Shown: piece by piece, positions 2,183-35,839 of the stretch
How positions within the stretch are numbered: position 1 is the stretch's first letter
Layout of the letters: the number at the start of each line of letters is the position of its first letter
NCBI RefSeq assembly: GCF_039503195.1
Contig: NZ_JBCJKP010000001.1
Location: forward strand, 1,054,001 to 1,118,000
Reading direction: 5' to 3'
DNA: 64,000 bases
Source: Streptomyces mirabilis
GTDB taxonomy: Bacteria; Actinomycetota; Actinomycetes; Streptomycetales; Streptomycetaceae
Program-made: the position numbers and the translations under genes
Notes under the pieces: model-generated
Databases searched by the model: none
Seen by the model: only the letters and a program-made list of their open reading frames with translations
Told to the model about the DNA's origin: nothing

Positions 2183-3052
2183 ATGGATCTGCGGCAGATG
2201 GAGGTCGTCGTCGCGGTGGCCGAGGAGGGCGGGTTCACCGCCGCGGCGCAGCGGCTGCACGTGGTGCAGTCCGCCGTGTCGAGCACCGTGCGCGCACTGG
2301 AGCGGGAGCTCGGGACCCCGCTGTTCGACCGCACCACGCACCGGGTGTCGCTGACTCCGGCGGGCGAGGCCTTCCTACCGGCAGCGCGGGCGACGTTGCG
2401 GGCCGCCGAACAGGCGCGGTCGGCGGTCGACGCCGCCCGGGGACAGCTGCGCGGACGGGTGACGGTCGGCACCATGCAGGGGGTGTGGGCCGACCTGCAC
2501 CGCCCGCTGGCCGCGCTGCGCGCGGAGCACCCGGGAGTGGCGGTGCGGCTGCGGCAGGGGGCCGTGACCGACATCCGCCAGGCGTTGCGCGAGGGCACGG
2601 TGGATCTGGCGGTGGTCGCCCTCGACCGTCAGCAGCAGCGCGGTCTTGTGACCCGGCTGCTCGCCCGGGAGGAGATGGTGCTGGTGTCCGCGCCGGGCCG
2701 GGTCCTGGGCGGGACCGGGCCCGACGGGAGGGTCACGCTGGCCGAAGCGGCCCGGCTGCCGCTGGTGGACTTCACGCCCGGCTGGGCGATCCGCCTCGCC
2801 GTCGACCGGGCGTTCCGTGCCGCCACCGTCGAGCGCGAGTCGACCTTCGAGGTGAACGACATCGTCGCGGCGTCCGAACTCGTCCGCGCCGACCTCGGTG
2901 TGTGCGTCATGCCCATCTCGATCGCCGACCGCTTCCCCGACCTGGACAAGCACCGGTTCGACCGGCACGCGCCGAGCTGGAAGGTCATGGTGGTCCAGCC
3001 ACGCGGGGAGGCGCCCCCGGCGGTCGCGGCCCTGCTGCGGCACATGGCCTGA
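2183..3052 (+). CDS. LysR-family transcriptional regulator
   Basis: 289-aa LTTR. Residues 1-60 form the winged HTH (MDLRQMEVVVAVAEEGGFT, then AAAQRLHVVQSAVSSTVRAL, LFDRTTHRVSLTPAG), followed by a linker helix and a periplasmic-binding-like effector domain. I chose the ATG at 2183 because GGGAGAGG lies 4 nt upstream; an earlier in-frame ATG at 2123 has no such site and adds a non-conserved stretch. LTTRs usually act on a divergent neighbour, but here the upstream genes run in the same direction, so its target is unclear. Confidence 0.9.
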   Translation: MDLRQMEVVVAVAEEGGFTAAAQRLHVVQSAVSSTVRALERELGTPLFDRTTHRVSLTPAGEAFLPAARATLRAAEQARSAVDAARGQLRGRVTVGTMQGVWADLHRPLAALRAEHPGVAVRLRQGAVTDIRQALREGTVDLAVVALDRQQQRGLVTRLLAREEMVLVSAPGRVLGGTGPDGRVTLAEAARLPLVDFTPGWAIRLAVDRAFRAATVERESTFEVNDIVAASELVRADLGVCVMPISIADRFPDLDKHRFDRHAPSWKVMVVQPRGEAPPAVAALLRHMA

Positions 3053-3142
3053 CGGGTGTGGCGTGAGAGGAGACGGAGGGACGAAGTGGATCGTCCCTCG
3101 TCTCAATCCCTCAGCCTCCGCGAACAAACTCCCCCCGACCGC

Positions 3143-26223: not shown

Positions 26224-26295
26224 GTGATCCTGATCGGCATCGATCCCCACAAGTCGTCCCACACTGCCGTCGCCGTCGACGCTGCGGGCCATCAG
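26224..26295 (+). pseudogene. 5' part of IS110-family transposase, split by Tn3 element
   Basis: 24 codons from a GTG: VILIGIDPHKSSHTAVAVDA then AGHQ. GIDPHK holds the first catalytic aspartate of the RuvC-like DEDD domain. The reading frame is cut exactly at the ATCAG target duplication and resumes at 35840. Joining the two gives a 345-codon gene of normal IS110 size. In IS110 elements the non-coding stretch before the gene (here about 26000-26223) is where the bridge RNA is encoded. Confidence 0.85.
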
Positions 26296-26340
26296 GGGGT
26301 CCAGCCAAGGTGAGCCCAAAAGCCGCCAAGGGATGATCTT
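26296..26340 (+). repeat. Left terminal inverted repeat of the Tn3 element
   Basis: Begins GGGGTCCAGCCAAGGTGAGC and ends GGGATGATCTT. It pairs with 35790-35834 over 45 bp with a single mismatch, and less well with the internal copy at 32147-32191. Confidence 0.92.
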
Positions 26341-26495
26341 GAGGTTCTGAGGGCCGGTCCCGCAGCCCTATCACCACGCGCCCGGCTCCGTCTCCGGTTC
26401 TGCTGTTCCGGCCTTCTCACTGCGCCGTCCCCACGATGATCCCGCGCGGGCGTATGTGGTGCGCCGGGTAGGGCTGGGCGTCGGGTGGGGTGGGG

Positions 26496-29400
26496 ATGAC
26501 TTCAATCGAGCGGACCGCGTACCCGCGGTTCAAGCGGCTGATCACCGCGCGTGAGCTGCATGTGTTCTTCACGCCGTCCGAGGAGGAGCGGGCCTGGGCG
26601 GAGGAGGCTGCGGACTCCGACGAGCACCAGTTGGCGCTGCTGCTGGCGCTGAAGTCGTACCAGCGGATGGGCTGCTTCCCGAAGGCGCACGATGTGCCGG
26701 AGCAGGTGATGGAGTTCGTGCGCCGGGCGGCGGAGCTCCCGGAGGACACCCTGCCGGTGTACGCCTCCGGCCGCACCGCCGAGCGGCACCGCTCGTGGGT
26801 CCGGGAGCGGTGCGGGATGCGCTACAACGGCCAGGCGGCCCGCGCGCTGGCCGAGGAGACGATGCGGATCGAGGCGGCGTCGAAGAACAACCCGGCGGAC
26901 CTGATCAACATCGCGCTGGAGAAGCTGGTGGAGGCCGGGCTGGAGATTCCCCGGTACTCCACGCTGGACACGATGGCCTCCACCGTGCGGGCCCGGGTGA
27001 ACGAGGAGATCCTGGCGGGCATCCGGGAGCGGATGACCGAGGACGAGCGGGTGCGGCTGCTGGGCCTGGTCGATGTCGTCGGCCTGGACGGCAAGACGCT
27101 GTTCAACGCGCTCAAGCACAACCCGGGGCGGGCGACCTGGTCGAACTTCAAGCGTCTGAAGGGCCACCTGACGTGGGTGGACGGGCTCGGCGAGAGCGCC
27201 AAGTGGCTGGAGGGCGTGGCGTCGGGGAAGGTCGCGGACTTCGCCGGCGAGGCGCAGGCCCAGGACGCGGCGACGCTCAAGGACTACACGGCCCGCCGGC
27301 GGGTCGCGTTGATCGCCTGCCTGGCCGCGAAGGCCAGGATGCGGGCCCGCGACGACCTGACGACGATGTTCTGCAAGCGGATGGCGGGCAAGGCGAAGAA
27401 GGCCCGCGAGGAGCTGGAGGAGATCCGGCGCCGGCAGCAGGAGATCGTGGAGACGCTGGTCGCCAACTACCGCACGCTGCTGCAGCAGGTGGACGCCGGC
27501 GGGCCCGCGCAGACCGCGCGGGCTAAGGCCGCCGCGTTGACCAAGCAGGCGCTGGACGCGCTGGAGGGCCTGGACGAGGAGTCCAGCGCCGCCGAGGCCG
27601 TCCGCAAGCTGGAGGGCCGCGTCTCGCCCGCCCTGCTGGTGCTCGCCGAAGGGCTGATGGTCCAGGCGAACGGGCTCGCCTCGCTGGTGGCGTCGGTGGA
27701 AAGGCTCGGCGGGTTCGACGCCCAGTACGCGCAGATCGAGCAGGTCTCCGCGCACCACGGCGACAACTGGGAGGTGCTGCTGCACGGTCACCTCAAGGCG
27801 GACCGGCCGGTGATGTTCGACCTCACCGACGTGATCGAGCTGAAGGCCACCAGCGAGGACTCCTCCGTGCTGGACGCCCTCGCGCACGCCAAGGCCCACC
27901 GGGCGATGGTGCGCGACTTCATCCCCGACCGCGACGCGGACGGCCGGAAGGTGGACGTCTCCTTCGCCACGCAGAACTGGCAGAAGGCGATCCGCGACCG
28001 GCGCCGGCCCGGCCACTTCGTGCGCCGCCACTTCGAGGCGATGGTCTTCTGCTACCTCGCCGACGAGCTCCGCACCGGCGACGTGGCGGTGATCGGCTCG
28101 GAGGAGTACGCCGACTGGTCCGAGCGGCTGCTGCCCTGGGAGCAGGTGGAGGCGAAGCTGCCGGATTACCTGGTGGAGGTCGGCCTGAGCACTCCGGGCG
28201 AGGCGGCGCCGTTCGACGGCCGGGCCCTGGTTGCCCAGCTGCGCGGGCGGCTGTCCGCGGCGGCGGCCGCGGCGGACGGCGAGTATCCGGACAACGACGA
28301 GCTGTTCATCGACCCCGACACGGGGGCGCCCAAGCTCAAGGCCCGCCGGGCTTCGATGCCGCGCAAGAGCACGCAGGTGCTGGAGCAGGCCGTCAAGGAG
28401 CGGATGCCCGAGCGCACCCTGCTGGGCATCGTGGCCCGCACGGCGTACTGGATCGCGTGGTGGCACCGGTTCGGACCGGCGTCCGGCAACGACCCGAAAC
28501 TGAGGGACCCGTTCGGCCGGTACGTGATCACGACGTTCGTGAAGGGCACGAACATGACCTTCGCCGAGGCCGCCCGGCACATCGCGGGCGTCTCCAGCCA
28601 CGAACTGTCCGTTGCGGCCCGCCGGCACGTCACCACGGCGAAGCTGAACGAGGCGATCGGCGACGTGGTGGACCGGCACGCCCAGCTCGACCTGTCCCGG
28701 GCGTGGGGCAACGGCACCACCGCGGCGGCCGACGGCACCCACATGGACACCTACCTGGACAACCTGCTCGCCGAGACGTCGGTGCGCTACGGGGCGGTGG
28801 GCGGTATCGCGTACCACCACGTCTCGGACCTGTACATCGCGCTGTTCACGCACTTCGTGCCGTGCGGGGTGTGGGAGGCGGTCTACATCATCGAGGGCCT
28901 GCTGAAGAACACCTCCGAGGTCGGCCCGACCACCATCCACGCGGACACCCAGGGGCAGAGCTACCCGGTGTTCGCCATCGCCCACCTACTCGGCATCGAC
29001 CTGATGCCCCGCATCCGCAACTGGAAGGACCTGCTGTTCTTCCGCCCCTCACGCACCGCCCAGTACGAGCACATCGACGCCCTGTTCGGCGAGCCGGGGC
29101 GCAACGTCATCGACTGGCGCCTGATCGAAAACCACTTCCGGGACCTGATGCGGGTGATCGTGTCGATCCGCGAGGGCGCCATCTCCTCCGTCCTGCTGCT
29201 GCGGCGCCTGCGCTCGGGCTCGCGGCGCAACGCCACCTACACGGCGTTCCGCGAGGTGGGCAAGGTGATCCGCACCGTCCAGCTGCTGCGCTACCTCTCG
29301 GACAGCCCGCTGCGGGCGAGGGTGACGGCGGCGACCAACAAGGTCGAGGCGTTCAACGGCTTCTCGGACTGGGTGCGCTTCGGCCAGAACGGCACGGTCG

Positions 29401-29696
29401 CGGCGAACGACCCGGTCGAGCAGGAGAAGGACGTGAAGTTCACGTCCCTGCTGGCCAACCTGGTGATCTTCCACAACACCCTGGACATCGCCGACGTGGT
29501 CCGCGAGCTGCAGGCCGAGGGGCGCCCGGTCGACCCGCTCGACCTCGCCCAGGTCTCCCCATACCTGACCGAGCACATCAAGCGGTTCGGCGAGTACTCC
29601 ACCCACGAACTCGGCATCACCCCCGACGCCTACGACGCCCGCCTGGACGTCGACTTCAGCGTGCTCGGCGGCGACGACAAGGCAGCAGCGGCATGA
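26496..29696 (+). CDS. tnpA: Tn3-family transposase
   Basis: 1066 aa, within the long range of Tn3 TnpA. It starts MTSIERTAYPRFKRLITARE, the standard N-terminus, with DUF4158 first and the DDE catalytic domain last: D746 (AAADGTHMD), D817 (TIHADTQGQSYPVFAIAHLL, key D in HADTQG) and E878 (RLIENHFRDLMRV). All three acids are intact, so the protein looks functional. The ATG at 26496 follows GGTGGGG. It acts on the 45-bp terminal repeats. A long coiled segment (about residues 290-330) lies in the middle. Confidence 0.96.
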   Translation: MTSIERTAYPRFKRLITARELHVFFTPSEEERAWAEEAADSDEHQLALLLALKSYQRMGCFPKAHDVPEQVMEFVRRAAELPEDTLPVYASGRTAERHRSWVRERCGMRYNGQAARALAEETMRIEAASKNNPADLINIALEKLVEAGLEIPRYSTLDTMASTVRARVNEEILAGIRERMTEDERVRLLGLVDVVGLDGKTLFNALKHNPGRATWSNFKRLKGHLTWVDGLGESAKWLEGVASGKVADFAGEAQAQDAATLKDYTARRRVALIACLAAKARMRARDDLTTMFCKRMAGKAKKAREELEEIRRRQQEIVETLVANYRTLLQQVDAGGPAQTARAKAAALTKQALDALEGLDEESSAAEAVRKLEGRVSPALLVLAEGLMVQANGLASLVASVERLGGFDAQYAQIEQVSAHHGDNWEVLLHGHLKADRPVMFDLTDVIELKATSEDSSVLDALAHAKAHRAMVRDFIPDRDADGRKVDVSFATQNWQKAIRDRRRPGHFVRRHFEAMVFCYLADELRTGDVAVIGSEEYADWSERLLPWEQVEAKLPDYLVEVGLSTPGEAAPFDGRALVAQLRGRLSAAAAAADGEYPDNDELFIDPDTGAPKLKARRASMPRKSTQVLEQAVKERMPERTLLGIVARTAYWIAWWHRFGPASGNDPKLRDPFGRYVITTFVKGTNMTFAEAARHIAGVSSHELSVAARRHVTTAKLNEAIGDVVDRHAQLDLSRAWGNGTTAAADGTHMDTYLDNLLAETSVRYGAVGGIAYHHVSDLYIALFTHFVPCGVWEAVYIIEGLLKNTSEVGPTTIHADTQGQSYPVFAIAHLLGIDLMPRIRNWKDLLFFRPSRTAQYEHIDALFGEPGRNVIDWRLIENHFRDLMRVIVSIREGAISSVLLLRRLRSGSRRNATYTAFREVGKVIRTVQLLRYLSDSPLRARVTAATNKVEAFNGFSDWVRFGQNGTVAANDPVEQEKDVKFTSLLANLVIFHNTLDIADVVRELQAEGRPVDPLDLAQVSPYLTEHIKRFGEYSTHELGITPDAYDARLDVDFSVLGGDDKAAAA

Positions 29697-29835
29697 CGGA
29701 CAAGCCGACACGGTCCGAAAACCGTTAGCGTTCCCAGGGGCATTGAGCCGAGACTGATCGGTCGATCACATCGGACAGGAAGAGTGGCCAGCCCTGACGT
29801 ACAACCGTGACACCCTGCCCTTCCCCGACAACCGC

Positions 29836-30558
29836 GTGCCCCGCGTCACCTACGAGGGCATTCGGGACTGGGAAGAGTTCGACCCTGCCCGCCAATCGTT
29901 CGCCTGGGACGAGGACGAGGAGGAACGCCTCCGCTCGCTGGTCCGCGAGTGGGTGCCGCCCGTGCTCTCCGGTACGGCTGGTTGGTGGCAGGGAGAACGT
30001 TGGTGCGAGAGCCAGGTGGACGCGATCATCCGGGAGCGATACGGCACCTGGGCCTGGGGATGGAGCTGGTGCTATCGCTACGGCGGGCCCATCGGTAACT
30101 GGGTCAGCGGGCCGAGCTCGGTGACGACCCCCGACGAGACCGCAGAACGAGTCGTGGCCGCGCTGCTGGAGTGGCGGGAGTGGTTGGAGCGAACGGCCCA
30201 GCGCTTCGCCGAACTGGCGCCGTCGCCGGACGCCTCGCCCGAGGATCGCAGTTGGCACCTGGAGCGGGCCTGCGTCCGGCTCGTGACCTACACCCTGGAC
30301 TCGGGCGCGGAGGGCGGCTGGTACGGGCAAGCATCGATCGTCTTGGGCTGGTTCCTCACCAGTACCGGCATGGATAGGGCCGAAGCCGCGCGAGCGGTGG
30401 AGCGTGCGATCGGTGGCCGGTTCAAGAGCTGGGTCTATCCGGAGCGGACGCTGATCGAATCGGTCGGCGAGGATCTCGCCGTCGGCCTCACCTGCCGCGC
30501 CCCGTACCGGGACCACCGCGAGTGGGAAGCGCTGGAGAAGCTCCATGACCGCTACTGA
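29836..30558 (+). CDS. Unknown protein, partner of the Fic gene
   Basis: 240 aa beginning VPRVTYEGIRDWEEFDPARQ; coding similarity continues in frame upstream (LTYNRDTLPFPDNR from about 29794), so a CTG or TTG start there is possible. The protein is acidic, soluble, all-helical by composition and rich in tryptophan (GTWAWGWSWCYRYG, GWYGQASIVLGWF). It has no recognised domain. Its last 14 nt overlap the fic start, which implies co-translation and suggests that the two products act together, perhaps as an inhibitor or activator of Fic. No clear Fic-inhibitory helix motif is visible. Confidence 0.75.
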   Translation: MPRVTYEGIRDWEEFDPARQSFAWDEDEEERLRSLVREWVPPVLSGTAGWWQGERWCESQVDAIIRERYGTWAWGWSWCYRYGGPIGNWVSGPSSVTTPDETAERVVAALLEWREWLERTAQRFAELAPSPDASPEDRSWHLERACVRLVTYTLDSGAEGGWYGQASIVLGWFLTSTGMDRAEAARAVERAIGGRFKSWVYPERTLIESVGEDLAVGLTCRAPYRDHREWEALEKLHDRY

Positions 30559-31153
30559 CAGCCCCTCGGTCTGGCTGCGCGTGCGCCGCGAGGTCGACTG
30601 GCGGCATTCACCGGCTCTGCAACGGGTCCCGGCCGGCCGCGACGGGTTCCGGTCCTGGTGCGAGGGACCGGTGCGTCGGCGCGACCCGATTCGCGCTGAG
30701 CGTCTGCTCGCCGCGCACACCCTGGCCCGGGAGGATGCCGCACGCCAGACCCCGCTGAACTTCGCTCTGCTGGCCCGTTGGCAACGCGAAGTCCTCGCTG
30801 CAACAGGGGCACCGTTCCGCGTGAGCGACGCCTATGCGAAGGCCGGCCGCGAGCGCTACGGTCTGACCCCTCACACGCAGGCCGACTTCGATTCCTGCCT
30901 GAACGAGACGACCGCCCCGGACATCCCGCTGGCGGCCCGCGCGGCCCGCGCCTACCTCGACGTGGCGTTCTTCCACCCCTTCACCGATGGCAATGCCCGC
31001 GCCGCACTGTTGACCTTGGTCTATGTCCTGGCGCGGGAGGACATCGTCCTTCCTGAGGTCGGCCCCCTCCAGACCACCCGCTACGCGGATGACCCGGCCG
31101 GTGCCGCCGACCTTGCCACTCTCATCGGGGTGCTCAACCGCCGCCGACGCTGA
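30545..31153 (+). CDS. Fic/Doc-family protein
   Basis: 202 aa. The Fic motif reads FFHPFTDGNARAALL: H, P, F, D, N and R of HPFxxGNxR are in place, with A at the position that is often G. Fic enzymes transfer AMP or phosphate from nucleotides to proteins and several are toxins. The upstream helix YLDVAFFHPF and the preceding flap region (TTAPDIPLAARAARA) fit the fold. It overlaps the upstream unknown gene by 14 bp. As cargo of a transposon it may serve as a maintenance module. Confidence 0.88.
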   Translation: MTATDSPSVWLRVRREVDWRHSPALQRVPAGRDGFRSWCEGPVRRRDPIRAERLLAAHTLAREDAARQTPLNFALLARWQREVLAATGAPFRVSDAYAKAGRERYGLTPHTQADFDSCLNETTAPDIPLAARAARAYLDVAFFHPFTDGNARAALLTLVYVLAREDIVLPEVGPLQTTRYADDPAGAADLATLIGVLNRRRR

Positions 31154-31187
31154 AGCGTTCGGGCGAGGGCACCGACCTTCCGCCAGA

Positions 31188-31286
31188 CTTCAACAAACCA
31201 ACGTTTTTTGAAGATCGCCGGGCGGGCCCAAGGAAGGACCCCAGCGCCTTCAAAAACTCCTTCAAAAACCTAGGTGGTTCAACAAC
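31188..31286. other. Candidate res site of the Tn3 resolvase
   Basis: The 166-bp gap before tnpR copy A contains a cluster of related AT-rich motifs in both orientations: TTCAACAAACC, TTTTTTGAAG, CTTCAAAAACTCC, CTTCAAAAACC and GGTTCAACAACC. Serine resolvases bind three such paired subsites upstream of tnpR. No equivalent cluster precedes copy B. Confidence 0.55.
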
Positions 31287-31319
31287 CCTCGGGCACCGTT
31301 TTCTGACAGGATTCCGGGC

Positions 31320-31988
31320 GTGAGCACGCCACTTGAAGACGCCCAGTTCGAACTCCTGGGCGACGAGCCCGCCGTCCGGACCGAGATCCGCATCGGATAC
31401 GCACGGGTGTCCACCGGCGGACAGAAGCTCGACCGCCAGCTCGACGTCCTCACCGCGGTCGGCTGCCGCCGGATCTTCGCCGACAGGAAGTCAGGGAAGA
31501 ACGACCTACGGCCCGAGCTGAAGGCGTGCCACGCTTTCCTCGCCGCCGGCGACACCTTGGTGGTGCCCGCCCTCGACCGCTACGGCCGTTCCTTGCAGGA
31601 CCTGATCACGATGGTCGGCGAGCTGCGCGAGCGGGAGATCGGCTTCACCTCGCTGCACGAGCGGCTCGACACCACCACCCCCGGCGGCCGGCTGGTGTTC
31701 CACGTCTTCGCCGCGCTAGCGGAGTTCATCCGCGAGCTGATCGTCTCCGGCACCCGCGAGGGCCTGGCCGCCGCCCGTGCCCGGGGGAAGGTCGGCGGCC
31801 GGCCCAGCGTCGTCAATGCGGACATCATCCGGGCCGCCCGCGACATGCTGCCCAACCCCGACCACTCGATCACCTCGATCGCCAAGCTCCTCGGGGTGAG
31901 CCCCGGCACGCTCTACAACCACATCCCGGACCTGCAGGAGCTGAGGGCCAGCCGTATTCCGGCCCAGCTCGAAGCGGGCAGCCGGTGA
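31320..31988 (+). CDS. tnpR: Serine resolvase, copy A
   Basis: 222 aa. The catalytic serine is S31 in IGYARVSTGGQ, with the conserved QLDVL, RKSGKNDLRPEL, VPALDRYGRSLQDL and the E helix EFIRELIVSGTREGL; the C-terminal Hin-type HTH is ITSIAKLLGVSPGTLYNHI. It would resolve cointegrates at the upstream res-like region. GTG start at 31320. A diverged second copy lies at 34963. The stop overlaps the GTG of a small conserved gene (GTGA). Confidence 0.95.
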   Translation: MSTPLEDAQFELLGDEPAVRTEIRIGYARVSTGGQKLDRQLDVLTAVGCRRIFADRKSGKNDLRPELKACHAFLAAGDTLVVPALDRYGRSLQDLITMVGELREREIGFTSLHERLDTTTPGGRLVFHVFAALAEFIRELIVSGTREGLAAARARGKVGGRPSVVNADIIRAARDMLPNPDHSITSIAKLLGVSPGTLYNHIPDLQELRASRIPAQLEAGSR

Positions 31989-32140
31989 TCCCCGGCGAGC
32001 ACCGGCTCAAGGGCGGGGCCCTCCTGCTCGGCGCCGACGAGCCCGGCCTGCCTGGGCCCTTCGGAGCCTGGACCGATCAGGACGGCCAGGAAGACGGGCA
32101 CGACCCGGCCGAAGACGCTTTCGTCGAACCGCACTGCTGA
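31985..32140 (+). CDS. Small conserved protein overlapping tnpR (copy A)
   Basis: 51 aa, starting at a GTG that overlaps the tnpR stop (GTGA). Sequence features: VIPGEHRLKGGALLLGADEP, then GLPGPFGAWTDQD, an acidic stretch, and a C-terminal FVEPHC. The second tnpR copy is followed by a homologue at 35631-35783. Between the two, most base differences are at third codon positions and silent, and the one length change is a 3-nt in-frame indel, the pattern of a real protein. Function unknown; the acidic His/Cys tail is notable. Confidence 0.6.
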   Translation: MIPGEHRLKGGALLLGADEPGLPGPFGAWTDQDGQEDGHDPAEDAFVEPHC

Positions 32141-32146
32141 TTCGCC

Positions 32147-32191
32147 AAGATCATCCCACTGCCCCTTTTGGGCTCCCCTTGGCTGGACCCC
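32147..32191 (-). repeat. Internal, decayed Tn3 terminal repeat (R1)
   Basis: AAGATCATCCC ... TTTTGGGCT ... CTTGGCTGGACCCC. It aligns end to end with the outer right repeat at 35790-35834 but differs at about eight positions, and it is not followed by ATCAG. It marks the former right end of the tnpA-tnpR element. Confidence 0.85.
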
Positions 32192-32241
32192 GACAAGGCC
32201 CGCGATGACCTCACACACCCCGGGCGGCAATGGTTCCTCGG

Positions 32242-32598
32242 TCACGGCCTGGCGGCCGCCTCCGGCTCGGCGCCTGCACTGTCCGGGGTGTCCTCGCGGT
32301 GGAGGAAGGCGCCCAGGAGGTCGCCGACGGGGTGGTCGGCCTCGGACGGGTGGCGAAGGGCCACCGTGGGGTCGATGGTGTAGCGGTTGCGGCGGCCCAC
32401 CCGGGTCCGGGTCAGGTACCCGGCCGCTTCCAGGTCCGCGACGATGATCTGCACCGCCCGCTCGGTGATACCGATCCCGGCGGCGACGTCCCGCAGCCGC
32501 ACCTCCGGGTCGCGGGCGATCCACAGCAGCACCCGTGCGTGGTTGGTCAGGAACGTCCACTGGTCGCCGCGTGCCGATGAGCTACTCATGACCTCCAT
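32242..32598 (-). CDS. Winged-helix transcriptional regulator
   Basis: 118 aa (109 if the ATG at 32571-like downstream methionine, position 32589, is used). Segments: QWTFLTNHARVLLWIARDPE, VRLRDVAAGIGITERAVQII (HTH), VADLEAAGYLTRTRVGRRNR (wing) and a C-terminal tail rich in A and E. The pattern is that of ArsR/MarR-like one-domain regulators. It is divergent from the Usp-terC cargo operon and two palindromes lie between, so it probably controls that operon and itself. No metal-binding cysteines are present. GGAGG is only 2 nt from the second ATG, so the start is uncertain. Confidence 0.78.
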   Translation of the reverse strand: MEVMSSSSARGDQWTFLTNHARVLLWIARDPEVRLRDVAAGIGITERAVQIIVADLEAAGYLTRTRVGRRNRYTIDPTVALRHPSEADHPVGDLLGAFLHREDTPDSAGAEPEAAARP

Positions 32599-32610
32599 CA
32601 TACGAAGTCC

Positions 32611-32663
32611 GGTTCGCATATTCATCCCCTCGTGCGAACCTTTATTAGCGAAAAGGTTTTCGC
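32611..32663. promoter_or_regulatory. Two palindromic operators in the cargo promoter
   Basis: GGTTCGCA (32611-32618) and TGCGAACC (32633-32640) form perfect 8-bp arms 14 nt apart. Next to them GCGAAAA GG TTTTCGC (32648-32663) is a perfect palindrome. Both share the core TTCGC/GCGAA. They lie between the HTH gene and the Usp-like gene and are likely binding sites for that HTH protein. Confidence 0.6.
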
Positions 32664-32739
32664 GTAACTGTTGACGTATGTCGGGTGGGCGGGTGACGCT
32701 GGAGGGGATTCCTCCTGTTATGGAAGGCGGGTAAGTGCC

Positions 32740-33249
32740 ATGACCCGACTGCTCTCCCACCCCCACCGAGACCGTGCTCCCCGCGTCGCGCGGGCGGGTC
32801 TGGTCCAGCCGGTGGCGGCGGTGCTGACCGACCGCATTGACGATGTCGCGGTGGCCGAGGCGGCCGCCCGCATCGCGCTGGCCCGCAGGGTGCCGCTGCT
32901 GCTGATCGCTGTGATGACCCCGCATGTGCGCCGTTCCTCCCTCGGTCCGGCCTCCGCGTCGGTGCGGGCGGTGCTGGCCCGGGTGATGCCGAAGGTCGGC
33001 CCGCACGCCACGGGCTACATCCCCGAGGTGTTCCACCTGCCCGTCGGCAGGGGTTCGCGGCTGGCGGCGGCAAAGGAGCTGCTGGCGCTGGCCTCCCGCC
33101 ACCGGGCCCCGGACGTGGTGGCCGCTCGCCGCGGCCCGCACGGGCTCGACGCACACGCCCTGATCGAGGCCGCGGCCCTGCGTGGCGGCCCATTCGTCCA
33201 CGCCGTCGCCCCCGCCGCCTGGGTGCCCCTGCAATCGCCGGCGCCGTGA
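32740..33249 (+). CDS. Universal-stress-like protein (cargo gene 1)
   Basis: 169 aa starting MTRLLSHPHRDRAPR. The alternating strands and helices (VAAVLTDRIDDVAVAEAAAR, PLLLIAVMTP, SRLAAAKELLALASRHRAPD, VVAARRGPHG) fit a Rossmann-like Usp fold, but the ATP-binding GxxGxxxGS loop is not evident. The ATG follows GGAAGGCGGG. It precedes the TerC gene by 55 bp on the same strand and is probably the first gene of that operon. Confidence 0.65.
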   Translation: MTRLLSHPHRDRAPRVARAGLVQPVAAVLTDRIDDVAVAEAAARIALARRVPLLLIAVMTPHVRRSSLGPASASVRAVLARVMPKVGPHATGYIPEVFHLPVGRGSRLAAAKELLALASRHRAPDVVAARRGPHGLDAHALIEAAALRGGPFVHAVAPAAWVPLQSPAP

Positions 33250-33304
33250 CCGCGCCGCCCGCTGGTGACGTGCCGTCCGGCTCTTGGAGAGGAAACGTTT
33301 CGCG

Positions 33305-34357
33305 ATGAATGACCTGTCGTTCGCCGTCCCGCTGTGGGTGTGGGCCGCGGTCACCCTCGGCATCTGCGTGATGCTCGCCGTCGACCTGATCGCCCACCGC
33401 GACAACCACGTCATCGGCTTCAAGGAGGCCGCGATCTGGAGCAGCATCTGGATCGCCATCGGTCTCGGCTTCGGCCTGATCCTGCTGGCGTGGCAGGGCG
33501 GGGAGGTGTCCTCCACCTACTACGCCGGCTACCTGATCGAAAAGGCCCTGTCGATCGACAACGTCTTCGTCTTCGCGCTGGTCTTCTCCTTCTTCGCCGT
33601 CCCCGACGCCTACCAGCACAAGGTCCTCTTCTGGGGCGTCCTCGGCGCCCTGGCCGCGCGGCTGGTGTTCATCTTCGTCGGCGCCGAACTGCTCCAGGTG
33701 TTCTTCTGGACCGCCTACGTCTTCGGTGCGTTCCTCATCTGGACCGGCTGGAAGATGGCCGTCTCCAAGGACGAAGAGGTCCACCCCGACCGCAACCCGG
33801 TCGTACGCCTGGTCAAGAAGCTCATCCCCACTGACCCGAAGTTCCATGGCGACAAGTTCTTCATCCGTCGCAATGGCAAGCGCGTGGCGACGCTGCTGTT
33901 CGTGGTCCTGGTCGCGGTGGAGGCAACCGACCTGATCTTCGCCGTCGACTCCGTCGCCGCCGTCCTGGCGATCACCACCAACACCTTCCTGGTGTGGACC
34001 GCCAACGCCTTCGCCGTCCTCGGGCTCCGAAGCCTGTACTTCTGCCTCGCCGGACTCCTGCGCCGCTTCGCCTACCTCCACTACGGCCTCGCGGTCCTCC
34101 TCGCCTTCGCCGGCGTCAAGCTCATCCTGTCCGAGACCCCCGTCGGCAAGCTCCCCATCCCCCTCACCCTCAGCGTCATCGCGGTGACCATCACCGTCTC
34201 CATCGCCTGGTCCCTGATCGCCACCCGCAACCAGGACGGGGCCCCCGACGGCATCCCGGCCATGACCGGGACCCCTCCCGCCGACCGCGGCGACGAGACG
34301 GCTCCCGCACCCGATCGGCCCGCAGTCCGCGGCACGCACGGAAAGGAATCGCCATGA
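33305..34357 (+). CDS. TerC-family integral membrane protein
   Basis: About 350 aa with eight or nine hydrophobic segments. TerC hallmarks are the acidic intramembrane motifs: YLIEKALSIDNVFVFALVFS and VAVEATDLIFAVDSVAAVLA, plus FLVWTANAFAVLGLRSLYFC. TerC proteins were named for tellurite resistance and several export manganese or load metal into secreted enzymes. A hydrophilic loop lies between (KDEEVHPDRNP). The C-terminal tail is disordered (P/D/A). Its stop overlaps the ATG of the next gene (ATGA). An upstream TTG at 33284 with GAGAGG is an alternative start. Confidence 0.93.
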   Translation: MNDLSFAVPLWVWAAVTLGICVMLAVDLIAHRDNHVIGFKEAAIWSSIWIAIGLGFGLILLAWQGGEVSSTYYAGYLIEKALSIDNVFVFALVFSFFAVPDAYQHKVLFWGVLGALAARLVFIFVGAELLQVFFWTAYVFGAFLIWTGWKMAVSKDEEVHPDRNPVVRLVKKLIPTDPKFHGDKFFIRRNGKRVATLLFVVLVAVEATDLIFAVDSVAAVLAITTNTFLVWTANAFAVLGLRSLYFCLAGLLRRFAYLHYGLAVLLAFAGVKLILSETPVGKLPIPLTLSVIAVTITVSIAWSLIATRNQDGAPDGIPAMTGTPPADRGDETAPAPDRPAVRGTHGKESP

Positions 34358-34875
34358 CCACGACCCGCACCCCCCGGCCCGCTGCTACGTCCCCGGCACG
34401 CGAGGTACACGACTACCCGTTCACGCTCCGCAGCGACGGCTCCGTCCTGGCCCTGTTCACCGGCTCCCGCGCCGATGCCGCCGTGGCCACCCGGGCCGCC
34501 GACCACGCCGCCCGCACCGGGCACCAGGTCACCGCCGCGGCCGTCGTCCGCAGCACCGGCTTCAGCATCAACGCCCTGCTCCACCTGGCCCGAGGACGCC
34601 GCATCCGAGCCGAAGCCGACGCGATCCTGGCCGCCGTACTGCCCGTCATCGCCCGCGCCGGACCCGCCCGCACCACCACCATGGTCGTGCCCGCACGCAC
34701 CAACCCCTACCAGGCACTGCCCGCCGACCGGGTAGAACGGCTCGTCGGCCATACCGGCGCCGATGTCGTCCTCAGCCCGGTGCCCCTGACCGGATACGCC
34801 TCACCCATCACCCGGGAGCTGAACCGCATCACAGACCCGCACTCCAGAAGCCACGCCATGGCAGCCGACCCCTGA
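34354..34875 (+). CDS. Universal-stress-like protein (cargo gene 2)
   Basis: 173 aa, translationally coupled to the TerC gene by ATGA. It shows an alpha/beta pattern (SVLALFTGSRADAAVATRAA, VTAAAVVRSTGFSINALLHL, TMVVPARTNPYQALPADRVE, ADVVLSPVPLTG) like Usp or cation-antiporter C-terminal domains, without a clear nucleotide loop. With cargo gene 1 it brackets TerC, suggesting soluble partners for the transporter. Function inferred only from fold-like pattern and context. Confidence 0.6.
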   Translation: MTTTRTPRPAATSPAREVHDYPFTLRSDGSVLALFTGSRADAAVATRAADHAARTGHQVTAAAVVRSTGFSINALLHLARGRRIRAEADAILAAVLPVIARAGPARTTTMVVPARTNPYQALPADRVERLVGHTGADVVLSPVPLTGYASPITRELNRITDPHSRSHAMAADP

Positions 34876-34894
34876 CACCAGCACACTCACGGCG

Positions 34895-34922
34895 CAGGCC
34901 CCGGCCAACCGGCCGGGGCCTG
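34895..34922 (+). terminator. Strong hairpin ending the TerC cargo operon
   Basis: CAGGCCCCGGCC (34895-34906), loop AACC, GGCCGGGGCCTG (34911-34922): a perfect 12-bp stem 20 bp after the last stop codon, followed by TCCCTGTTC. It should stop transcription into tnpR copy B. Confidence 0.85.
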
Positions 34923-34962
34923 TCCCTGTTCAAGATCAATCTCACCGATAACCACGGTTCGA

Positions 34963-35634
34963 TTGATCCCCGACGCCGTTGAAGACGCCCAGTTCGAACT
35001 CCTGGTCGCCGAGCCCGCCGTCCGCACCGAGATCCGCATCGGATACGCACGGGTGTCCACCGGCGGACAGAAGCTCGACCGCCAGCTCGACGCCCTGGGC
35101 GCGGTCGGCTGCCGCCGGATCTTCGCCGACAAGAAGTCGGGGAAGAACGACGCCCGGCCCGAGCGGAAGGCGTGCCACGCCTTCCTCGCCCCGGGCGACA
35201 CCTTGGTGGTGCCCGCCCTCGACCGCTACGGCCGCTCCCTCCAGGACTTGATCCCCATGGTCGGCGAACTGCGCAAGCGCGAGATCGGCTTCACCTCGCT
35301 GCACGAACGGCTCGACACCACCACCCCCGGCGGTCGGCTCGTCTTCCACGTCTTCGCCGCCCTCGCCGAGTTCATCCGCGAGCTGATCATCTCCAGCACC
35401 CGCGAGGGACTGGCCGCCGCCCGGGCCCGCGGCAAGGTCGGCGGCCGGCCCACCGTCATCAACCCGGACATCATCCGAGCCGCCCGCGACATGCTCCCCA
35501 ACCCCGAGCACTCGATCACCTCGATCGCCAAGCTCCTCGGCGTCAGCCCCGGCACCCTCTACAACCACATCCCCGACCTGCAAGAACTACGCGCCAGCCG
35601 CATCCCCGCCCAGCTCGAAGCAGGCAACCGGTGA
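34963..35634 (+). CDS. tnpR: Serine resolvase, copy B
   Basis: 223 aa from a TTG, with catalytic S32 in IGYARVSTGGQ and the same domain order as copy A. Homology to copy A begins exactly at TTGAAGACGCC (34977/31331): the native start region and the res-like cluster are absent, and the first six codons come from foreign sequence without a good ribosome site. The catalytic and HTH regions are intact (LAEFIRELIISSTREGL, ITSIAKLLGVSPGTLYNHI). Expression is doubtful because a strong hairpin precedes it. The two genes differ at many silent sites, so they are relatives and not a fresh duplication. Confidence 0.88.
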   Translation: MIPDAVEDAQFELLVAEPAVRTEIRIGYARVSTGGQKLDRQLDALGAVGCRRIFADKKSGKNDARPERKACHAFLAPGDTLVVPALDRYGRSLQDLIPMVGELRKREIGFTSLHERLDTTTPGGRLVFHVFAALAEFIRELIISSTREGLAAARARGKVGGRPTVINPDIIRAARDMLPNPEHSITSIAKLLGVSPGTLYNHIPDLQELRASRIPAQLEAGNR

Positions 35635-35783
35635 TCCCCGGCCTGCACCGGCTCAAGGGCGGCGCCCTCCAGCTCGGCGCCGACGAACCTGGCCTGCCCG
35701 GCCCCTTCGGTGCCTGGACCGATCAGGATGACCCGGAAGACGAGCACGACCCGGCCGAGGCTCTCGTCGAGCCGCACTGCTGA
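35631..35783 (+). CDS. Small conserved protein overlapping tnpR (copy B)
   Basis: 50 aa homologue of the 31985 gene (VIPGLHRLKGGALQLGADEP, PGPFGAWTDQD, VEPHC), again starting at the GTG in the GTGA overlap with tnpR. It lacks one acidic codon relative to copy A. Confidence 0.58.
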   Translation: MIPGLHRLKGGALQLGADEPGLPGPFGAWTDQDDPEDEHDPAEALVEPHC

Positions 35784-35789
35784 TTCACC

Positions 35790-35834
35790 AAGATCATCCC
35801 GTGGCGGCTTTTGGGCTCACCTTGGCTGGACCCC
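35790..35834 (-). repeat. Right terminal inverted repeat of the Tn3 element
   Basis: Inverse of the left repeat: AAGATCATCCC, then GTGGCGGCTTTTGGGCTCAC and CTTGGCTGGACCCC. It is followed directly by the ATCAG duplication. Confidence 0.92.
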
Positions 35835-35839
35835 ATCAG

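Follow-up and report, generated by a model that had tools for sequence, protein, structure and literature searches.

The two short reading frames that follow the resolvase genes of a Tn3-family transposon in Streptomyces mirabilis appear to belong to an undescribed family of small proteins, which in our reading is a portable add-on of actinobacterial mobile elements (Tn3-type transposons and plasmids), coupled to its upstream genes by translational reinitiation and directed at a common target; we would put the probability of this reading at roughly 0.6. The frames lie in a window of 64,000 nucleotides, and the first of them, mp1, would be translated as VIPGEHRLKGGALLLGADEPGLPGPFGAWTDQDGQEDGHDPAEDAFVEPHC.

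The transposon and its two microprotein genes

The element around the frames (Table 1) belongs to the Tn3 family, having a Tn3 DDE transposase, inverted terminal repeats, a 5-bp target duplication and a resolvase. Because ATCAG flanks positions 26296 and 35834, whereas the inner right-type repeat is followed by GACAA, we take 26296-35834 to be the mobile unit and the outer end to be the one used last; both resolvase–microprotein pairs lie inside this unit. To its right stands an IS110-type transposase whose Pfam DEDD profile is matched only from position 49, and the element is therefore probably inserted within the IS110 transposase gene. Repeats of the TTCAA type, which look res-like by inspection, precede tnpR1; tnpR2 is without this region, and its likeness to tnpR1 starts only near 34980. 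The unit also holds a TerC-type gene, and within the element there is a Fic/Doc-domain gene (PF02661, 30545-31153) that may encode the toxin in a two-gene pair carried by the transposon.

Table 1. Features of the transposon and of its resolvase–microprotein pairs (window coordinates)
Feature	Coordinates	Strand	Basis or remark
ATCAG target-site duplication, left copy	26291..26295	.	flanks left repeat
Terminal inverted repeat, left	26296..26341	+	precedes tnpA
tnpA, Tn3-family transposase	26490..29696	+	PF01526 (1.3e-126), PF13700
tnpR1, small serine resolvase	31320..31988	+	PF00239, 1.5e-39
mp1, microprotein gene, 51 aa	31985..32140	+	GTG start, 4-nt overlap with tnpR1 stop
Right-type terminal repeat, inner	32146..32191	-	46 bp; 5 bp past mp1 stop
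tnpR2, second resolvase copy	34963..35634	+	PF00239, 4.5e-39; start codon uncertain
mp2, microprotein gene, 50 aa	35631..35783	+	same 4-nt overlap with tnpR2
Terminal inverted repeat, right outer	35789..35834	-	5 bp past mp2 stop
ATCAG target-site duplication, right copy	35835..35839	.	flanks outer right repeat

The GTG of mp1 at 31985 overlaps the tnpR1 stop (TGA, 31986-31988), and the frame runs to its own stop at 32138-32140. A first-pass annotation had described a 51-codon frame beginning in a GTGA shared with the tnpR stop, a position that suits translational coupling to tnpR, and a second copy downstream; the frame, its homologous copy and the 4-nt overlap are all present, and the distance from the mp1 stop to the inner edge of the terminal repeat, given there as 6 bp, is 5 bp. 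The openness of the frame is no evidence for a gene in this region of 73% GC, because 60% of 5000 sequences resampled at order 1 from these 153 nt are open too; what raises the frame above chance is that its relatives conserve it.

The two copies differ by one in-frame 3-nt gap, as had been reported, and by 9 silent changes over 37 sites (pS 0.24) and 7 replacement changes over 113 sites; silent changes are thus 9 of the 16 where silent sites are only 37 of 150 (p = 0.007 in a one-sided binomial test). The dN/dS of 0.22 compares with 0.23 for tnpR1 and tnpR2, in which 40 of 69 changes are silent against a site share of 177.2/666. This excess of silent changes, together with the conservation of the relatives as protein, bears out the proposal of protein-level selection made at first pass; the accompanying statement that the differences fall mostly at third positions stands for 9 of the 16 aligned sites, a small majority only. 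Thus far, the small protein encoded by mp1 and mp2 looks real.

Extent and character of the family

A protein search with a single sequence returned 13 relatives at E ≤ 10, two of which lack a source, and a 25-row profile returned 180 at E ≤ 1, the best 120 of which are considered here; the family alignment holds 64 sequences in all. At the level of genomes, matches were found for the family level in 31 of 394 genomes at E ≤ 0.001 in a first search and in 41 of 394 at 1e-5 in a later one, for the genus level in 58 of 392 (0.01), for the order level in 27 of 391 (1e-5) and for the class level in 14 of 394 (0.01), with only three genomes outside the family at E < 1e-6; these tallies come from overlapping genome sets with at most 17 candidates scored per genome, and they may miss members and include chance matches at the weak end. 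The working set of 88 distinct members combines the genome searches, the plasmid searches and the tnpR loci at a score of at least 30 and with the N-terminus present, 10 matches without an N-terminus having been removed before the count. Hosts of the plasmid copies are mostly Streptomyces, with Rhodococcus ruber also represented. One locus, L130, has two different microprotein genes of the family (1501-1674 and 2874-3062) within 1.6 kb.

The supposition that no described family covers the protein agrees with the searches: nothing in Pfam, NCBIfam, PHROGs or PADLOC matched the microprotein, and the 64 members compared with Pfam gave only Hpt, in two members and at a best E of 0.083. A toxin or antitoxin family was likewise not found in the microprotein searches, and the neighbours on both sides vary between contexts. 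Two members searched against 50,697 phage records had no match, and among viral contigs none was confirmed with the family alignment (one pattern) or with the class-B recombinase; a phage origin of the microprotein is therefore unsupported by these searches. By its profile matches, the microprotein is part of a wider, unnamed family of soil actinobacteria whose members carry a hypothetical label or no annotation.

What kind of protein might this be? When the PDB was searched by profile for a known structure, just two entries matched, both at E 0.6, and AlphaFold2 on the 64 rows gave a low-confidence model (pLDDT 60.3, pTM 0.18). In a comparison with recombination directionality factors and excisionases there was no family match, and neither a winged helix nor another DNA-binding fold was confidently modelled, though a model of such low confidence leaves room for one. 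The conserved N-terminal part is basic and rich in glycine and proline, with a median net charge of +2 over the first 13 residues (88 members), and the variable tail is acidic, with a median of -6 past residue 28 in the 63 members that do not exceed 75 aa. A basic, Gly/Pro-rich start and an acidic tail with no confident fold would fit a short binding peptide.

Conservation as protein

Is it the protein that is conserved, or the DNA beneath it? With 62 distinct members compared in 1891 pairs, the first two codons being excluded, pN/pS is lowest in the microprotein frame, at 0.69, as against 1.40 and 1.12 in the remaining forward frames and 1.47, 0.76 and 1.21 in the reverse frames, and the values are little altered when four visibly damaged members are removed. 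The value of 0.76 belongs to the reverse frame whose third positions coincide with those of the microprotein frame. We take the forward frame as coding because stops interrupt this antisense frame in 24 of the 62 members, a comparison to be read knowing that members were chosen as open in the forward frame and that its freedom from stops is partly due to this selection, and because amino-acid substitutions are less conservative when read in the antisense frame, with a mean BLOSUM62 of -1.18 versus -0.97. Synonymous codons occur at background rates at the invariant arginine positions and at most invariant glycine positions; at codon positions 3, 11 and 16, and at a few more, a single codon recurs above background, so that some additional constraint at the DNA level is possible.

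Those repeated codons, the antisense frame at 0.76 and the restriction of similarity to the microprotein stretch in 391 of the 630 collinear pairs discussed below are what a DNA or RNA element beside a transposon end or recombination site might produce, the conservation of the frame being then only apparent. We nevertheless consider such an element very improbable: pN/pS is lowest in the microprotein frame, the antisense frame is interrupted, synonymous variation is free at most invariant residues and open copies change length by 3 and 6 nt. As the main cause, a DNA-level element was rejected on the synonymous variation, the pN/pS by frame and the antisense stops, and by these measures the conservation of the family is at the level of protein.

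Upstream partners and translation

An upstream partner was assigned in 50 of the 88 members by tblastn to class references, several of which are the loci themselves, with the low-complexity filter on and no assignment for class D below 80 bits; the remaining 38 members often have short or decayed upstream frames. Serine recombinases of two kinds are the partner in 38 of the 50, comprising a small resolvase (17; Resolvase domain in Pfam) and a second recombinase in which Pfam finds Phage_zn_bind_8 and Resolvase domains (21). The other partners are a phage-like family resembling phrog_6361 (3, with phrog_6361 at 4.4e-7), T5orf172-like genes (2, at an E of 0.0098, which falls short of the cut-off), HTH_58 genes (2, Pfam), class D, which has no known domain (2, tblastn to the class reference), a DnaB helicase (1, Pfam), a KilAC antirepressor (ANT/Bro-N; 1, Pfam) and, in L199, another gene without a known domain (1), which matched no reference but itself.

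Class D is weak as a partner group. L095 and L169 have a gene in common; L127, like L199, has no domain and has itself as its sole match, its upstream gene is without a Pfam or PHROG match, and the tblastn matches to it were discounted as they look like low-complexity artefacts. The upstream frames of the class-D-like L124, L126, L118, L174 and L128 are short or decayed. A subgroup with the motif VIRxHHRxKGGA (L124, L126, L095, L127, L174) has more than 400 bp of 3' DNA in common, with upstream frames that vary by locus, and a DUF6420 gene comes next in the annotated L169.

An NTGA overlap at the start is found in 48 of the 50 partner-assigned members, the exceptions being L196, with a frame broken at the start, and L116 (GTAA), which is decayed, with GTA for its start codon and an internal stop, though a recombinase is annotated there. 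This overlap is not independent of the N-terminus of the microprotein, because GTG or ATG followed by ATC at codon 2 creates TGA automatically, and start picking preferred NTGA; the telling fact is thus that recognisable genes end at this point. The match to the partner class extends to 32 nt or less from the microprotein start in 45 of the 50, the five beyond this distance being diverged or decayed class-B genes. Additionally, among 19 plasmid regions with annotation, which was made independently, 11 have a preceding CDS that terminates exactly 4 nt into the microprotein gene, a count that includes the decayed L116 and derives from 20 regions hand-picked from among the matches, one of them without annotation.

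Shine-Dalgarno-like runs occur in the last codons of many partners (GGAGGT in L012, GAGGAGGT in L098), and their mean pairing energy is -7.67 kcal/mol versus -6.44 kcal/mol for synonymous shuffles (n = 37, Wilcoxon p = 0.006, which is overstated because the members are related and not independent). The effect is modest, with a mean rank of 0.41 and a rank below 0.2 in 32% of members. Among the class-D-like members, five without a clear partner (L124, L126, L118, L128, L174) have AGGAGA ahead of the GTG. Because these runs in the partner ends pair better than shuffles, termination–reinitiation likely couples the microprotein to its partner. A different route, in which -1 frameshifting or stop readthrough would lengthen the upstream protein at its C-terminus and the microprotein would not be a separate product, receives hardly any credence from us: in the overlap cases the microprotein frame does lie at -1 relative to the partner and runs on immediately from the partner's stop, but 82 of the 88 members have GTG or ATG as their first codon, with the Shine-Dalgarno-like signal, and no common slippery heptamer was seen on inspection across partners of the 60 nt before the stop.

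Exchange of partners

Collinear DNA matches around the microprotein start connect 630 pairs of members. Beyond the 391 pairs in which the match covers the microprotein only, it covers the upstream gene and the microprotein in 104, all three parts in 3, the microprotein and downstream DNA without the upstream gene in 12 and is otherwise arranged in 120. Ten of these 12 pairs are among class-D loci and another, L151/L171, begins inside the microprotein; the pair that remains, L094/L135, has DNA in common from -9 to +386 and unrelated upstream genes, a phrog_6361-like protein versus a resolvase. In a quick tree the microprotein of L088 groups with mp1 and mp2 of the window, L012 and L125 in a starred clade (97%); the gene before it is the second kind of recombinase, and a stretch resembling the window repeat comes after it. 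On the microprotein tree, which has 52 columns and mostly unresolved forks, the partner label changes 18 times, as against a least possible 8 and an average of 24.6 under shuffling, with none of 200 shuffles reaching so low a count, from which we conclude that the partner is largely inherited yet exchanged. In a few cases, as far as these alignments indicate, the partner is swapped around the start-codon junction and the microprotein kept.

Gain, loss and decay

Relatives of tnpR found regardless of the microprotein numbered 79 loci (80 of 324 relatives kept, genome-contig scan). Only seven of the 79 have a microprotein-like stretch, and 72 are without one by the test used; L014 has a remnant that falls short of the score threshold, and further remnants may be present in L056 and L068. 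The stretch is in frame in L011, L012, L013 and L044 and is frameshifted beside an open tnpR in L008, L009 and L010, the repeat of L009 having a one-base loss as well. Frameshifts beside an intact tnpR were named at first pass as the outcome that would speak against a conserved frame; they are present in the latter three loci and not in the former four. An intact tnpR beside a frameshifted microprotein argues against an essential role in resolution. In 10 class-B recombinases fetched from plasmids there was no intact microprotein, and L222 has a frameshifted one, but this 0 of 10 is not a rate, because the sample was drawn from 40 of 142 plasmid records with such a recombinase, the known carriers H96, H97, H98 and H132 being left out. 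The microprotein is thus dispensable for the elements, and it persists across the family over large distances despite this patchiness.

Could the peptide then be an accessory of Tn3 transposition, as the first-pass annotation had suggested in proposing an action on resolution, transposition immunity or terminal-repeat use? A peptide that binds its own resolvase or the adjacent repeat, and so tunes these processes, would be in keeping with the prevalence of serine recombinases among the partners, with the position between tnpR and the repeat in the window subgroup and with the clustering of the partner label on the microprotein tree. We judge it unlikely, and the suggestion is unsupported, because the same family with the same overlap also follows DnaB, KilAC antirepressor, HTH_58 and other genes; such variety among the partners argues against a function bound up with resolution or with the terminal repeats. 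Additionally, members that follow non-resolvase genes often have no window-type repeat within 170 nt past the stop, most tnpR relatives do without the microprotein and three carry a broken one. The frequent loss, with 3 of the 7 microprotein-bearing tnpR relatives frameshifted, might also be what is left by hitch-hiking, that is, by a frame once selected and now functionless in the element of the window while the family is otherwise conserved; this is decidedly improbable for mp1 and mp2, which are both open at the divergence and dN/dS given above.

A separate observation concerns a stretch of about 45 bp past the resolvase stop that is similar, before sequences diverge, in L024, L031, L038, L041, L042, L043 and L047, and also in L062, L065, L072, L076, L079 and the class-B locus L223. 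In the -1 frame it reads DQSxRxFLYxNYSxP or close to it, and it is probably another terminal-repeat group that abuts two kinds of resolvase.

A proposed portable peptide and its possible target

In the reading that we prefer, a portable add-on with a common target, ribosomes that end the partner gene would restart at the GTG or ATG, aided by the Shine-Dalgarno-like stretch, and the peptide would be produced whenever the partner is. The peptide alone may be largely unfolded, and its first 27 residues, which are conserved, basic and rich in glycine and proline, might bind one common target in the elements or their hosts; nucleic acid, the replication or repair machinery and host defence are candidates. 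Such binding would help the element to become established, with no action on the resolvase or the transposon ends. We also entertain, as a tentative and somewhat doubtful idea, a plug-in peptide, one conserved and unfolded microprotein that the elements would hitch by a stop–start overlap to a DNA-processing gene they express; it would disarm or recruit a single host factor, and its unrelated partners would serve only as expression platforms, exchangeable at the overlap.

We are drawn to this family because it is unnamed and recurs at a fixed position behind unrelated mobile-element genes. Should the family have a single target in the host, it would draw attention to a process there with which many actinobacterial plasmids and transposons have to deal, and the stop–start overlap is suggested as a point of exchange between gene modules.

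Relation to known systems

Recombination directionality factors are small proteins encoded beside site-specific recombinases. The microprotein is also small and often stands beside a recombinase gene; it differs in having no confident DNA-binding fold and in following partners other than recombinases too. A literature search found no description of such a protein, which is weak evidence, as most subscription papers lie outside the scope of that search. The terminal repeats of the window presumably resemble those of Tn4556. This Tn3-family transposon of Streptomyces fradiae has a Tn3-type transposase and inverted repeats, as does the window element, also from Streptomyces; the four ORFs listed for Tn4556 include no microprotein, and its resolvase is described as a PF00589 (phage integrase) protein (PMC6403206), whereas the window element has a PF00239 resolvase with a microprotein. 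The toxin–antitoxin passengers of the Tn3 family are likewise small genes tied to Tn3-family transposition genes (PMC7157771; a search of its main text found no occurrence of "Streptomyces", "Actinobacteria" or "small ORF"). As described in that source, those passengers are two-gene pairs between tnpA and res, whereas the microprotein is a single gene past tnpR.
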